A DNA stretch of 64,000 nt from Fundidesulfovibrio putealis DSM 16056 (GTDB taxonomy: Bacteria; Desulfobacterota; Desulfovibrionia; Desulfovibrionales; Desulfovibrionaceae): contig NZ_AUBQ01000006.1 of NCBI RefSeq assembly GCF_000429325.1, positions 1-64,000 on the forward strand. The letters are read 5' to 3'. The stretch's first letter is position 1, and each line of letters opens with the position of its first letter. The translations under genes were made by a program, and so were the position numbers. The notes below the pieces were generated by a model, which was not told the origin of the DNA, did no database searches, and worked only from the letters and a program-made list of their open reading frames with translations. Below, one piece after another: positions 15,462 through 58,839 of the stretch.

Positions 15462-16514
15462 GTGCTCAAGCATCCGCGCCTTGTGGATACAGTCAAAGCC
15501 GCCGGTTGAGCCGCAAAGCTCGCCCCAGGGGACCTGGCGGCTGTTCTGCGCGATCTTGATGTCGCTGATGACCCTCGCTTGCTGACTGGAACAGGAGACA
15601 ACGAGGACGCTGCTGTGTTGTCTTTTCCTCCCGGCAAAGCCCTGGTGCAGACCGTCGATTTTTTCACGCCAGTGGTGAACGATCCTTACCGTTTCGGCCA
15701 GATAGCCGCCGCCAACGCTCTCTCCGACGTCTATGCCATGGGTGGTGAACCCTTCGCCGCCATGAACATCGTCTGCTTCCCCGCAAAGTGCATGTCTCTC
15801 GACATCCTCAAAGAAGTCCTGCGCGGCGGGTTCTCCAAGATCAAGGAAGCCGGGGCAGCCATGGCTGGCGGACATAGCGTCGAGGACGCGGAGATCAAGT
15901 ACGGCCTCGCCGTGTCAGGGCTGACCGACCCGGATAATTTTGCCACCAACCGGGGGCTGCGTCACGGCGACAGGCTGCTGCTCACTAAACCGCTCGGGAC
16001 TGGGATTCTGGCCACGGCGGTAAAGGCTGCGCTCCCCGATTCTGACCGGTATGAGGACGCAATCTGGCGGGTTGCTTCGCGTTTGAACAGCGTTCCGGGC
16101 AGGCTCATACGTGAATATGGCCTGCGCGCGGCAACAGATGTGACTGGCTTCGGGCTGGGCGGGCACTTGTTGGAGATGTCCAAGGCGTCCGGCCTAGAGG
16201 TGGAGCTCTTTGCCCATGCCGCGCCTGTGATTCCTGACGCGTACGACCTTGCGCGTCAGGGGTTTGTTCCTGTGGGCAGCCATGCAAACCGCAAATATTT
16301 TGCGCAGGGGTGTGTTGTGGACAATGGGGTCGACCCGCTCCTTCTGGACCTCTTGTTCGATGCCCAGACCTCGGGAGGGCTGGTCCTCGCCGTCCCTGAG
16401 GCCTTGGTGGAGTCAGTCAGCCAAGCGCTGATCGATGCCGGGGACCTCGCGGCGCCGGTGGGACGCGTGCTCGATCACACCTCGCTTCCAGGGCTCTTGC
16501 GTGTCAGTCCGTAG
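15462..16514 (+). CDS. selD: Selenide, water dikinase, itself a selenoprotein (Sec16)
   Basis: SelD makes selenophosphate, the selenium donor for selenocysteine synthesis, from selenide and ATP. The frame from GTG 15462 runs 350 codons and is broken only by TGA at 15507-15509. Translating TGA as selenocysteine gives VKAAG-U-AAKLAPGD, exactly the SelD active-site motif G(C/U)xxK, with Lys19 in the catalytic position. The rest (TGTGDNEDAAV, QTVDFFTPVVNDPY, ANALSDVYAMGG, GGHSVED) is full-length SelD. A caller that treats TGA as stop would begin at 15579 and lose the catalytic residues. A SECIS-like hairpin follows the UGA. Five bases downstream of the LysR gene. Confidence 0.93.
15509..15542 (+). 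promoter_or_regulatory. Bacterial SECIS-like hairpin in selD
   Basis: Immediately after the selD UGA, AGCCGC (15509-15514) can pair with GCGGCT (15537-15542, sharing one base with the inner stem), and inside it CCAGG (15525-15529) pairs with CCTGG (15533-15537) around a GGA loop at 15530-15532. The apical loop is 21-23 bases after the UGA and carries guanines, as expected of bacterial SECIS elements read by SelB. The outer and inner helices cannot both use base 15537, so the exact fold is uncertain. Confidence 0.7.
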
Positions 16515-53321: not shown

Positions 53322-54755
53322 TCAGGAGGCGACGGTCCGCTCGCAGGTGACGCCGTGTTTGCGCATCCGGTTGAGGACAGTCAGCCTGCTGACCCCGAGC
53401 ACGCGTGCGGCCTGGCTCTTGTTGCCCCCGGTCTGGCGCAGGGCCTCCACCAACGCCGAGCGTTCATCACCGGGCGATCCAGGCGCGGCTGCCGTGGAAG
53501 CGAAGCTGGGGGGCGCGGCGCTGCACGCTGGGGCAACTGCCGGGCCAGCAGGCGGGGAGGCGCACGCAGCCCGATTGGCGCGACCAATGCCCGGCGGCAG
53601 GTGCGAGGCCTCGATGCGCCCTGAATCCGCCAGCACCAGCGCATATTCCAGGGCGCTGCGCAGCTCGCGCACGTTGCCAGGCCAGGTGTGCTCCATGAGA
53701 AGCCGCATGGCCTCGGGCGATATCCGGGCCGCGTCCCCGCCGGTCTTGGCGGCGCTGGCGTGCAGGAAATGCCCGGCCAGCAGGGGCAGATCCTCCATGC
53801 GGGCGCGCAGCGGCGGCAACTCGATGGGGATCACGTTGATGCGGAAGAAGAAGTCCTCCCGGAAACGTCCCTGAGCGATCAGGGCGCGCAGGTCCTGGTG
53901 GGTGGCCGTGATCAGGCGCACGTCCACCGGGATGGGCCGGTTCGCGCCCACGCGCTCGATCGAGCGCGTCTCCAGCACGCGCAGGAGCTTCACCTGTATG
54001 GAGACCGGGGCGTCGCCGATCTCGTCCAGGAAGATGTCGCCGCTGTGGGCGGCTTCGAAGCGGCCCTGGCGCTCGCGATAGGCTCCGGTGAAGGCCCCTT
54101 TGGCGTGGCCGAACAGCTCGCTCTCCAGGAGTGATTCGTTGAGCGCCGCGCAGTTGAGCTGTACGAACGGGCCGGCCCGGCGCGCGCCGAGCTCGTGGAT
54201 GGCCCGCGCGGCCAGCTCCTTGCCGGTGCCGGATTCTCCCAGCAGCAGCACCGGCGCGTCCGAGCGCGCGGCCTTCTCCAGGATGTCGAACAGCCTGCGC
54301 ATGGCGGGCGACGCCCCCACCATGCCGTGAAAGCTGTCAGGCCGGTCCAGAAGGCGAGAGAGCTCCTCCACCCTGCGGTCCAACCGGTCCAGTTCGCTTA
54401 GGTCCATCACGCTCTCCACCGCGCCGATCACCGTGCCGTCCTTGTCGTGGATAAGCGACTGGTTCTTGAACACCGGCAGGAGCGAGCCGTCCTTGCGGCT
54501 GATGAAGCAACGCTTGGCCTGGCTCTCTCGCCCGGCGAACAGCGGGCACCATGCACCCGTGACGCCCTTCCGCTGCGTGGCGCAGACCTCGCAGCCAAGC
54601 ACCGCGCAGGAGCGCTCCATGAGCTCATCGCGTGAATACCCCGTGAGCCGCGTCATGGCGTCGTTGACCATGACGATCCGGCCTTTCGGGTTGACGATGT
54701 ACACCCCTTCCTGAATGGCGTGGCAGATTTCCTGCCAGTGCTGGCTGATGTCCAT
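53322..54755 (-). CDS. PAS-sigma54 activator controlling the divergent cytochrome operon
   Basis: 477 residues. An N-terminal PAS domain (about 8-115) contains clustered cysteines ([16 protein letters not shown] and KRC between about 49 and 83), suggesting a redox or metal signal. The AAA+ domain (about 143-370) has Walker A GESGTGKE, an intact [15 protein letters not shown] and [13 protein letters not shown] Fis-type helix-turn-helix ends the protein (about 445-468, [20 protein letters not shown]), preceded by an Ala/Pro-rich linker. It is transcribed away from the ferredoxin-cytochrome operon 90 bases distant and is its obvious candidate activator. Confidence 0.93.
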
Positions 54756-54845: not shown

Positions 54846-55937
54846 TTGATGGCATGCATGCTGCTTATGAAAGACATGCTTACAACGCTCGCACCCAACT
54901 CCCGGTTCTCGCGCAGAACCCTGTTCAAGGCCCTGGGCCTGGGCGGGGCGGCGGCGCTCATGCCCGCCCGCTCCCGCGCTGCCGTGCTCCCCGAAACCGG
55001 CCAGGAAATGGCCACGCTTCTGGACTTAAGCAAGTGCATAGGCTGCGGGGCCTGCGTGGACGCCTGCCGCGAGGCCAACGCCGCGCGCTATCCCGAGCCC
55101 AAGAAGCCCTTCCCCCAAATGTACCCGCCGCGCGTGAAGGCCGAGGACTTCTCGGACAAGCGCGGCGTCACGGACCGCCTCACGCCATACAACTGGCTCT
55201 ACATTCAGACCGCCAGGGCGGAAGGGCGCGAGGTGTTCATCCCCCGGCGCTGCATGCACTGCCAGAACCCGCCCTGCGCCAACCTCTGCCCCTGGGGCGC
55301 GTCTTCCAAACAGACTGACGGCGCGGTGTCCATAGATCCCGACATCTGCCTGGGCGGGGCCAAGTGCCGCGACGTCTGCCCCTGGGAGATTCCCCAGCGC
55401 CAGACCGGCGTGGGCCTGTACCTGGACCTGATGCCAAGCGTCGCGGGCAACGGCGTGATGTACAAGTGCGACCGCTGCGCCCCACGCGTGGCTGCCGGGA
55501 AGCTCCCGGCCTGCGTGGAGGCCTGCCCGGAGGGCGTGCAGGAGTACGGCCCGCGCGAGGTGATCGTGGCCAAGGCCAAGGCCCTGGCCAAGAAGAGCGG
55601 CGGCTATCTCTACGGCCTGGAGGAGAACGGCGGCACCAACACCATCTACCTCTCGCCCGTGCCTTTCGAGAAGCTGAACGCCTCGCTCATGGAGGACAAG
55701 CACGGCGGGCGGGGCAGGGAATCAAAGCCCGGCAGGATGCCCCAGCAGGGTTTTGGCAGGCCTCACCTGGCCGCCACGGCGGACGTGATGGCCGGGTCCA
55801 ACACGTTGGCCTGGGCGGTGCTGCTGGCTCCCCTGGCTGGGATCGCCTCGGTCTTCCTGAAGGGATCGCGCAGGGTGCTGGACGCTTCCCGCCGGAACGC
55901 CCCCGTCGCCGACACGAAGGAGGACCGCAATGTCTAG
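54846..55937 (+). CDS. Tat-exported ferredoxin-like subunit with four [4Fe-4S] clusters
   Basis: 363 residues. The twin-arginine signal SRRTLFK (about residues 22-28) is followed by cysteine motifs for four clusters: CIGCGACVDAC, CMHCQNPPCANLC, CLGGAKCRDVC and CDRC...CVEACP (between about 64 and 230). A transmembrane helix near 315-335 may anchor it. It is the TtrB/HybA/FdnH type of periplasmic electron-transfer subunit. Several in-frame ATG codons precede the Tat motif, so the exact start is uncertain. Its stop overlaps the next gene by eight bases. Confidence 0.88.
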   Translation: MMACMLLMKDMLTTLAPNSRFSRRTLFKALGLGGAAALMPARSRAAVLPETGQEMATLLDLSKCIGCGACVDACREANAARYPEPKKPFPQMYPPRVKAEDFSDKRGVTDRLTPYNWLYIQTARAEGREVFIPRRCMHCQNPPCANLCPWGASSKQTDGAVSIDPDICLGGAKCRDVCPWEIPQRQTGVGLYLDLMPSVAGNGVMYKCDRCAPRVAAGKLPACVEACPEGVQEYGPREVIVAKAKALAKKSGGYLYGLEENGGTNTIYLSPVPFEKLNASLMEDKHGGRGRESKPGRMPQQGFGRPHLAATADVMAGSNTLAWAVLLAPLAGIASVFLKGSRRVLDASRRNAPVADTKEDRNV

Positions 55938-56343
55938 CCTGACCCTCTACCGCTGGACCGTGGCCGCACTGGCCATCTCCGGCGTCGCCCAGATGCCCAT
56001 CTTCAAGCGCTACTACATCGCGGACATTCCCGGCCTGGGCTGGACCGCCGATTATTTCTTCACCCACAAGATGCACTATGTGGCGGCCGCCGTGCTACTG
56101 TTCTGGCTGGCGCGCCGTCTGCTGTCCGAGGGCGTCTCGTCCCTCGGGGCCGGGCGGCTGACGCTTCTGGCGGCGCTCGTCGCCACGGGCGTCCCCCGCG
56201 TGCTGAAGAACATGCCCGACGTGAGCTTCTCGCCCACAGCAACCATGCTTATCGACTGGTCGCACCTGGCGGCGGCCATGGCTCTTGGAATCACGGCCCT
56301 GGTCATGCTTGTGAAACGGCGTCCCCAAACAGCAAGGAGGTAG
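55930..56343 (+). CDS. Small integral membrane subunit of the cytochrome complex
   Basis: 137 residues with about four transmembrane helices and histidines inside the membrane parts (THKMHYVAAAVLL, DWSHLAAAMALG), which could ligate haem b. Not matched to a named family. It overlaps the ferredoxin gene by eight bases and ends 3 bases before the cytochrome start, so the three are one translational unit and probably one quinone-linked complex. Confidence 0.75.
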   Translation: MSSLTLYRWTVAALAISGVAQMPIFKRYYIADIPGLGWTADYFFTHKMHYVAAAVLLFWLARRLLSEGVSSLGAGRLTLLAALVATGVPRVLKNMPDVSFSPTATMLIDWSHLAAAMALGITALVMLVKRRPQTARR

Positions 56344-56346
56344 CCC

Positions 56347-58839
56347 ATGTTCGCGCTCCGGGCGCTCGCGGCGCTCATCTTGTTCGTGTCCCTGGCGGCG
56401 GAGGCGCAGGCGAAATCAAACGCCTGTCCGCCCTTTTTCCTGCGCACGGAGGACGGCGCGGTCATAAACCCCGTCACCGGCGAGAACGCCGACAAGCCCA
56501 TCTCCACGCGCCAGACCTGCGGCGCGCAGGGCTGTCATGACTACGCGGCCATCACCAAGGGCTACCATTTCCAGCAGGGCTGGGACAACATCTCGGACTC
56601 CTTCAACAAAGACAAACCCTGGATGCTCTCGCCCGGCATGATGGGCAAGCTGTGACCCCCCTCCTTTCGCCAGTTGGCGAAAAAGCAGAACGACAATCCC
56701 GACCAGATCGACATGACCCCCTTCGCCTTCGCGGCAGACGGCCCCAAGGACCCCAAGATGCTTGGCGTTCCCGGCTGCGGCGGCTGCCATCCGGGCGGCG
56801 GCGGCATGGAGTATGACCGCGACGGCCAGCGCTACGACGTGCGCCTCAAGGGCGACCCCTCGCTTTCGGCCTCCCTGGACGGTGACTACCACAAGAGCCA
56901 GTGGGACAAGACCGGCGTGCTCGAGGCCGATTGCTTCATCTGCCACCTGCCGGGCTACGACTTCAAGGAGCGCAACAAGCAACTGAAGAAGCTCAATTTC
57001 CGCTGGTCCGCTACGGCGGCCTCCGGCATAGGGCAGGTGCAGGGCTTCGTGGACGAGGGCAAAACCCCGACCGTGGCCTACAACCTGCGGCTCTTCAATC
57101 AGGACGGCAAGGTGGCCCTGAACCTGACCGACACACCGCCCAGCGAGAATTGCGTCTTCTGCCACGGCATGTCCGACATGAAGAAGCGCGGCTTCTCCTG
57201 GAACGACCCGGTCAACCACGACGTGCACAACATGCGCGGCATGTCCTGCGTCAGCTGCCACCCCGGAAACATCAACCACAACTTCGCCAAGGGCCAGGAA
57301 AACGTCTCCACGGTGCGAGACGACCTGGACAACACCATGAAGAAGTGCGCCGACTGCCACACCACCGGCTACATGGGCGCGCCAAGGCCCCAGCACGCCA
57401 GCGTGCGCCCCAGCCACCTGGAGAAGATGGCCTGCGAGGCCTGCCACATCCCGGCGCTGAACCGCGCGGGCGGCGAGGGCTTCGACGTGACCACCGGGGC
57501 CATGGTCAACTATTCCAAGATCGGCTCCAAGGGCATGGGCGCGGAGTTCAAGTGGGAGCCGCGCATGCAGCTGGTGAAGCGCGGGCAGATCACCCCGGTG
57601 AATCCCCTGCTGGTGACCACCTGGACCAACAAGGACGCCGACGGCACGTACTATCCGCTCTTCATGCGGGAGCTCAAGAAAGCCTGGGAGATCGCCTCGC
57701 CACAAATCAAGAACCAGAAGGCTCCCGGCAAGCCCGAGCTGCACACGCCTGAAGACATCAAGGTCATGATCCTCGCGGTATCCAAGGCTCTTGAGGGCAA
57801 CAAGCGCTTCAAGCAGGTGAGCCCGGTCTATCACAAGGGCGGCGAAGTGCACTTTCTCGGCCCTGACGGATCGGTCGTCACCGCCAAGGACCAGACCTGG
57901 GTGGGCCATGTGGAGGGCTTCAACATCAACCACAACGTGGCCCCGGCCAAGCTGGCCCTGGGCGCGAACGGCTGTCGCGACTGCCACTCCGACACCGGCA
58001 ACGTGTTCGCGGGCCGCATGGTCACGGACATGTTCGGCAAGGACGGCAAGCCCGTCTACACCACCAACGCGGCGCTTCTGGGCATCAGCCACACTGCGCT
58101 GGCCATGAACGACGCCTATCAGGCCGTGGTGGTCCCTTACGGCAGCTGGGCCATCCTCATCGTGGCCTTCATTCTGACGCTGCATTACACAGGCCAAGGC
58201 CCCAAGGGCCTGGACATGCGCCACGAGCCGGGCGAGATCGTCCGCTTCAACCTGGCCGAGCGCTGGTCGCACCTTGTGCGCATGCTGGCCTTCGTGGTGC
58301 TGGCCGTCACCGGGTATGTGTTCTTCGTGAGCAACGCCACCCTGGCCAAGGCCCTGTTCGGGTCCTACCACGCGGCATCTGTCTGGCACTGGGCCGCCGG
58401 GCTGGTCTTCACCCCCGCCGGACTGTACAGCCTGGCTTTGTGGGCCAGGGACGCGGTGTTCAAGCCCTACGACTCCAAGTGGTTCGCCATGAGCGGCGGG
58501 TATCTTGGCTGCAGGGATTCAGGCGAGCACGCCCCGGCTGGCCGCCTGAACGCCGGGCAGAAGGTGTTCTTCTGGCTGTCGCTGGCCCTGACGCTGGTCA
58601 TGGCAGGGACGGGCATCCCGCTCATCTGGAAGGAGGCCCTGTCGGCCAGCACCGCCCTGGTGCTGTCCACCATCCACGGCGTGGCGGGCGTCTTGTTCGT
58701 GGCCAGCGCTCTGGCGCACGCCTACCTGGGAACCATCGGGAACCCCGGCACGTGGCGCGTGCTGGTGGACGGCAGGGTCAGCCGGGCCTGGGCCAGGGAG
58801 CATCACTCCGAGTGGTATCGGGAGAAGGAAGGCAGATAG
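56347..58839 (+). CDS. Octahaem cytochrome c fused to FdnI-like membrane domain; probable selenoprotein (UGA at codon 103)
   Basis: One frame of 831 codons, interrupted only by TGA at 56653-56655 (codon 103). Before it: signal peptide (about 1-22) and an unusual CX4CH haem motif (C58-H64). After it: seven CXXCH motifs starting at C144, C196, C269, C301, C334, C363 and C543, a transmembrane helix (about 599-617), and a C-terminal FdnI/cytochrome b-like domain (about 640-830). Neither half stands alone: the first piece has a signal and half a haem domain, the second lacks a start codon, ribosome site and signal peptide. A perfect stem-loop follows the UGA. The neighbours resemble octahaem (Ohc-type) respiratory complexes of sulfate reducers. 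A nonsense mutation cannot be excluded from one sequence. Confidence 0.75.
56665..56682 (+). promoter_or_regulatory. SECIS-like stem-loop after the in-frame UGA of the octahaem cytochrome
   Basis: TTTCGCCA (56665-56672) pairs perfectly with TGGCGAAA (56675-56682), giving seven or eight base pairs and a G/U-bearing loop (AGTT) at 56672-56675, that is 17-20 bases after the UGA. Position, stem length and a guanine among the first loop bases fit bacterial SECIS rules. The same bases encode FRQLAK, so the hairpin lies in coding sequence as expected for bacteria. Confidence 0.65.

Follow-up and report, generated by a model that had tools for sequence, protein, structure and literature searches.

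An octahaem cytochrome gene with a single in-frame UGA

Here, we analyse a gene at positions 56347-58839 of a 64,000-nucleotide stretch of DNA (hereafter the window) from Fundidesulfovibrio putealis DSM 16056 (contig NZ_AUBQ01000006.1, positions 1 to 64,000), which very probably encodes a selenoprotein, namely an octahaem c-type cytochrome with selenocysteine (Sec) at an in-frame UGA codon. The gene had been singled out in a model-generated reading of the window (the original prediction), which described one frame with a signal peptide, a CX4CH haem motif, a single TGA, seven CXXCH motifs and an FdnI-like membrane domain; translation and the family model TIGR01583 (FdnI) bore out each of these elements. 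The interval is a single frame of 830 residues on the forward strand, as are all features given below unless stated otherwise, and its sole interruption is the TGA at codon 103 (56653-56655), the conserved site of the proposed Sec103.

The start ATG of the first part sits behind a strong Shine-Dalgarno sequence, AAGGAGGT, and opens a secretory (Sec-type) signal peptide, read by eye from the translation, which covers residues 1-22 and ends in AQA (56347-56412). The haem 1 motif (CGAQGCH, C58-H64, 56518-56538) precedes the UGA and is of the CX4CH form in the genus, while many relatives outside the genus have CXXCH. Beyond the UGA follow the motifs of haem 2 (CGGCH, residue 144, 56776-56790, then PGGG), haem 3 (CFICH, residue 196, 56932-56946), haem 4 (CVFCH, residue 269, 57151-57165), haem 5 (CVSCH, residue 301, 57247-57261), haem 6 (CADCH, residue 334, 57346-57360), haem 7 (CEACH, residue 363, 57433-57447) and haem 8 (CRDCH, residue 543, 57973-57987). 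The UGA thus stands between haem 1 and haem 2, where the original prediction had placed Sec. Behind haem 4 lies the element D277-x-K279-K280 (57175-57186), of which K279 is kept in 15/15 and K280 in 14/15 rows of a wide alignment of the family.

The C-terminal membrane domain, an FdnI-like cytochrome b, extends over residues 631-828 (58237-58830). Its score with the NCBIfam model TIGR01583 is 116.0 bits, barely above the cut-off of 115.85, and Pfam gives Ni_hydr_CYTB at residues 633-801, with generic c-haem families in between. H642, H681, H777 and H791 are invariant in all 15 rows of the wide alignment that reach this domain; they are candidate ligands of haem b, by comparison with FdnI.

Codon 103 is UGA or mainly Cys among homologues

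Among the homologous loci read, TGA stands at the site in 39 (a count to which the window and some duplicate genomes contribute), corresponding to 32 sequences that are distinct over the next 48 nt. A further 11 homologues have no UGA at this position: eight more distant loci (L053, L056, L058, L062-L065 and L067) have Cys, and three loci of one distant clade (L066, L068 and L069) have Ser, Phe or Gln, while Trp was found in none of the 11. The original prediction had named such an alignment as a means of telling Sec from a nonsense mutation, and its outcome favours Sec. A search of the phylum matched 110 of 395 genomes, many of them only in the FdnI part, and loci from 30 matches were read; the other matched rows, some with one TGA and many without, lie outside this residue count, and other states may exist among them.

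The three states (Sec, Cys and other) need 3 changes on a quick tree of 42 rows from which the site had been omitted, and Sec falls into two groups. The tree program warns of long-branch joins; L023, which is too distant, and the second fragment of L048 were excluded. Since the same base is present in four congeneric genomes, a sequencing error is very unlikely.

A conserved hairpin accompanies the UGA codon

Bacterial selenocysteine insertion sequence (bSECIS) elements are described, in a 2026 review (PMC13188914), as hairpins placed 16-37 nt downstream of the UGA with a G early in the loop. The hairpin of the window, UUUCGCC-AGUU-GGCGAAA (56665-56682), conforms to this rule: its loop begins 16 nt after the UGA, its folding energy is -9.7 kcal/mol (z -2.75), and 3 of 200 shuffled sequences were as good. 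The original prediction had described a perfect 8-bp hairpin here; the hairpin is real, but a stem of 7 bp with the 4-nt loop AGUU describes it better than one of 8 bp with a 2-nt loop. In most relatives this hairpin recurs, at a distance of 16 or 22 nt; its stem hardly varies within the main clade, and in the FPQLAEK clade it shifts register.

A hairpin obeying the rule was found in 26 of the 32 distinct UGA sequences, in 23 of them at -7.5 kcal/mol or below. The same rule gave no hairpin in any of the 11 UGA-less homologues, though the peptide encoded by four of these is almost identical (RQLA, then P or K). The hairpin test that had been suggested for the region downstream of the UGA thus came out in favour of Sec, both in the window and in the comparison of UGA with UGA-less loci.

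The genome of F. putealis also encodes the means of decoding the codon. SelA and SelB were detected with 588 and 366 bits, respectively, together with a tRNA-Sec with the anticodon TCA. The window itself holds selD (15480-16400), whose own internal, in-frame TGA confirms the earlier claim that SelD needs UGA decoding here. Taken together with the 39 TGA loci, the eight Cys loci and the hairpin contrast, this machinery strongly supports the proposal of a selenoprotein.

Relation to octahaem tetrathionate reductase

A full-length profile search of the Protein Data Bank (PDB) matched FdnI (1KQF chain C, 2e-26) and not octahaem tetrathionate reductase (OTR, TIGR04315), and the wide family profile gave only weak matches to FdnI, to NrfA-type proteins and to one designed cytochrome. 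With the octahaem part of nine proteins tried, no model of the NCBIfam release searched reached its cut-off. When the wide family profile was aligned with the OTR profile by hhalign, the two matched with a probability of 99.4% over haems 3-7, and the same alignment pairs D277 and K280 with D150 and K153 of the OTR from Shewanella oneidensis (PDB 1SP3). Judged from this profile comparison, the window protein is a distant relative of OTR. Cys64 and Lys153 are presumably placed at the active haem 2 of that enzyme.

The OTR family was examined for the same exchange. TIGR04315 was found in 92 of the 395 phylum genomes, in 68 above the cut-off, and 30 over-cut-off matches contain one TGA, among the matches listed. 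In six OTR genes (L088, L092, L093, L098 and L099 of those 30, and additionally L146) the TGA falls between haems 1 and 2 as the last position of the motif NNF-U or NSF-U, and aligns with Cys64 of 1SP3; the others have Cys there. A rule hairpin at -7.5 kcal/mol or below followed the codon in 6/6 of these UGA genes versus 0/10 of the Cys genes examined. A Sec form of OTR (TIGR04315) is also listed as annotated in GenBank in the review (PMC13188914).

Both proteins have eight c haems, and in the OTR genes examined the interval from haem 1 to haem 2 holds a conserved Cys or TGA. They differ in the haem 1-haem 2 spacer, which is longer here and carries GK[FL]U or GGRWU where OTR has NNF[CU], in the cytochrome b domain fused here, and in the CX4CH at haem 1 in the genus. 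The family seems to place selenium where OTR has its key cysteine: we infer that Sec103 would occupy the position of Cys64, because the order of elements is the same and the Sec/Cys exchange is shared.

Proposed role of Sec103

The original prediction had left the role of Sec between redox centre, haem ligand and substrate site. A more specific role is likely, since OTR has its Cys64 in the very interval where the site lies, and we rather favour the interpretation that the protein is a selenoprotein with an OTR-like active site of Sec, haem 2 and Lys, which acts as a quinone-linked periplasmic reductase. SelB and tRNA-Sec would read UGA103 as selenocysteine by means of the hairpin directly downstream. 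The exported domain, if loaded with its eight haems, would be anchored by the fused FdnI-like cytochrome b and would exchange electrons with menaquinone. Electrons from menaquinol may pass through the b haems (at H642, H681, H777 and H791) and the haem chain to haem 2, where Sec103 and Lys280 (Lys153 of OTR) would form the catalytic site that acts on the substrate. The protein would then be a respiratory, quinol-linked reductase that acts on an S-S, S-O or N-O substrate, although electrons might also run in the reverse direction. Selenium may serve as nucleophile or as redox partner, e.g., through a selenosulfide intermediate; the latter is a conjecture modelled on TsdA, for which an S-thiosulfonate step has been described.

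Whether the family is a selenoprotein superfamily absent from the catalogue of the 2026 review (PMC13188914), in which a selenolate would replace the active-site thiolate of an OTR-like enzyme at a Lys-ligated haem, we regard as an even question. If it is, its members would rely on selenium to carry out a reductive cleavage at a c-type haem, and would do so in a quinol-driven respiratory complex of sulfate reducers. We know of no selenoenzyme for which such a cleavage has been described, and selenoproteins in which Sec possibly works beside a c-type haem have hardly been studied. The family offers a natural comparison of Sec and Cys in one scaffold (39 UGA and 8 Cys loci), with a crystal structure for a distant Cys relative. 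Moreover, plain calling of open reading frames (ORFs) splits such genes, so that genome-based metabolic models would miss a possible respiratory reductase in sulfate reducers.

Evidence against the proposal and alternative explanations

A number of observations count against this interpretation. As regards the hairpin, six of the 32 distinct UGA sequences do not conform to the rule (L007, L008, L047, L052, L055 and L061) and three more conform to it with energies weaker than -7.5 kcal/mol. With no G demanded in the loop and a wider range of distances allowed, six of the 11 UGA-less homologues also showed some stem of 5 bp or more, and the other five showed none. A weaker rule hairpin is likewise present in 3 of the 10 OTR Cys genes. 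Within the gene itself, a rule-satisfying hairpin at -7.5 kcal/mol or below occurs at 74 of 809 codon positions and any rule stem of 5 bp or more at 316 of the 809; among 20000 synonymous recodings, 179 gave a stem of 7 bp or more at equal minimum free energy, in a null model whose codon usage was taken from 11 long ORFs of the window chosen by length, some of which are perhaps not real genes. The window hairpin taken alone is only mildly unusual and is not rare within one gene. Because this background is high, the evidence lies in the conservation of the hairpin and in the contrast between UGA and UGA-less sequences, not in one hairpin.

In a reading without selenium, the UGA would be decoded as another amino acid, would be a programmed stop that yields both a short and a long product, or would be bypassed by an internal start. 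Other organisms do read through UGA without inserting Sec. The claim of the original prediction that the second part has neither start codon nor ribosome site did not hold: in-frame starts follow the TGA (TTG at 56674, ATG at 56713, ATG at 56758 and later ones), and the ATG at 56758, between the UGA and haem 2, has AAGGA 7 bases upstream, a possible ribosome site. However, Met occupies this position in 2 of 16 aligned rows only, those of the window and L003, and a product begun there would carry neither the signal peptide nor haem 1. The Sec system of the genome is complete and includes a UGA-containing SelD, the main replacement at the site is Cys with no Trp seen among the UGA-less loci read, the rule hairpin goes with UGA and not with Cys, and TGA is present in distant lineages as well. 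We therefore hold it very improbable that selenium plays no part. A nonsense mutation in a pseudogene, or a pair of separate genes, can be dismissed with still greater ease, to the point of being scarcely credible. Automatic ORF calling does split the gene, as had been foreseen; yet five genomes of the genus, as well as Desulfobacca-type and other lineages at about 60% identity, retain the TGA and the onward frame, and the second part has no signal peptide of its own.

The protein may also be a selenoprotein whose Sec103 lies outside an OTR-like catalytic site, a possible but doubtful arrangement in which it would conduct electrons from quinone to partners in the periplasm or farther out, and Sec would ligate a haem, sense redox state or connect the protein to a partner. 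For eight haems only six conserved His (in at least 90% of the rows of the wide alignment) were found below residue 600 outside the haem motifs, so one haem besides a Lys-ligated one may need another ligand. The Ser/Phe/Gln clade keeps K279 and eight CXXCH motifs with neither Sec nor Cys, and the neighbouring genes encode iron-sulfur (FeS) and membrane electron carriers. As for the likeness to OTR, the whole protein scores 36.8 with TIGR04315 against a cut-off of 375, and the pairing of K280 with K153 stands just after a three-residue alignment gap. A global hhalign alignment pairs haems 1 and 2 with those of OTR but leaves residue 103 and Cys64 unpaired; because of this our claim is limited to their lying in the same haem 1-haem 2 interval. 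A structure prediction (mean pLDDT, i.e., predicted local confidence, 46.7, and mostly <40 in the haem region) lent no help and was not used. In favour of the catalytic role of Sec103, on the other hand, are the retained Lys that aligns with Lys153 of OTR and the Sec/Cys exchange that OTR also displays in this interval.

Distribution of the gene

At an E value of 1e-30 the gene was found in 7 of 348 genomes of the class, i.e., in F. putealis itself, in four congeners and in two genomes of another family, the latter two as partial matches. TGA is present at the site in all seven, with L008 one frame off owing to an apparent 1-nt indel. Five of the seven genomes of the genus, its own included, carry the gene; two gave no match, one of which is only 66% complete. 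Among 218 class genomes, a profile of the octahaem part recovered full-length genes in five, each belonging to this genus, along with three partial matches that were weak.

Relatives occur in other classes as well. Fifteen loci were confirmed in named genome contigs: 13 of these (L009-L021) have TGA at the site, L022 stops short of it, and L023 has TGA at the matching place. L021 is frameshifted, as is the locus L048. L009 is the copy in the named record of Fundidesulfovibrio agrisoli strain SG106, a carrier that makes the selenoprotein claim directly testable.

Genomic neighbourhood and comparison with Ohc

Upstream of the cytochrome gene lies a gene for an HmcB/HybA/OhcB-like protein with 4Fe-4S dicluster domains (54846-55937; the true start is perhaps downstream of the listed TTG), adjoined by one for a small hydrophobic, presumably membrane-bound protein of 137 aa (55930-56343), which matched no Pfam or NCBIfam family. 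A PAS/sigma-54 activator is encoded divergently on the reverse strand (53322-54755). The sigma-54 promoter candidate at 54850-54865 is weak, with 12 pattern matches versus 7.1 expected in the window.

This arrangement resembles the Desulfovibrio ohcBAC operon with its divergent enhancer-binding protein DVU3142, as described in PMC4641369. Likened by description, both combine an FeS protein, a divergent sigma-54 activator, and an octahaem c and a haem b component in one operon. In contrast to Ohc, which has separate OhcA and OhcC, the octahaem and cytochrome b parts here form one polypeptide, the octahaem part belongs to another family, and a small membrane protein is added. The fused gene looks like an Ohc-like module in which the cytochromes c and b have been joined. 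The C-terminal domain likewise matches FdnI, the gamma subunit of formate dehydrogenase-N (1KQF chain C), but in this protein it is joined to an octahaem c domain, and the neighbouring ORFs scanned include no formate dehydrogenase alpha subunit.

Strong matches to the FeS gene are present in 144 of the 218 class genomes. In the seven class neighbourhoods read, the small protein stands next to the FeS gene in 7/7 and a similar activator in 3/7 (L144, L145 and L150). An OTR-type octahaem gene follows the pair in two, with Cys in L145 and TGA in L146, and in L146 a further following ORF was read by eye as a cytochrome b; the other five show no haem protein downstream within the stretch read. One of the neighbourhoods, L144 of genome G200, belongs to the same genus: the FeS and small membrane genes are present and the octahaem gene is not behind them, having likely been lost. 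Outside the genus, the FeS and small proteins were not found in the flanks, often short, of other octahaem loci, and a similar activator lies near L010, L017 and L019; in L020 the match was partial.

Other multihaem cytochromes with predicted or possible selenocysteine

The original prediction knew of no named selenoprotein family of this kind in sulfate reducers. This stands in part: the 2026 review with its table of 119 families (PMC13188914) lists TIGR04315 and ExtKL as Sec cytochromes, these and GSU2204 being the families there with haem motifs, whereas the name of the window family is neither among the 119 nor was it found in the open-access literature searched.

ExtKL (NF040886) of Geobacter, as described in PMC5877670, is likewise a multihaem c cytochrome with a predicted Sec. 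It differs from the window protein in having five haems and in the placing of Sec, which sits in IPDGUPTPNR in those loci for which its position was determined; the window protein does not contain this motif. NF040886 gave no match to the protein at E up to 1 and none in its own genome at E 1e-10, and ExtKL was rejected as the parent family, its Sec being located elsewhere, after haem 5.

A metagenome-assembled genome of the Desulfuromonadaceae encodes a multihaem protein of 1268 aa (L023:2329-6132), for which no NCBIfam family was matched. Its gene has TGA in the context YGKW-U-SPSLRQ and the hairpin TTCGCC-AGGT-GGCGAA.

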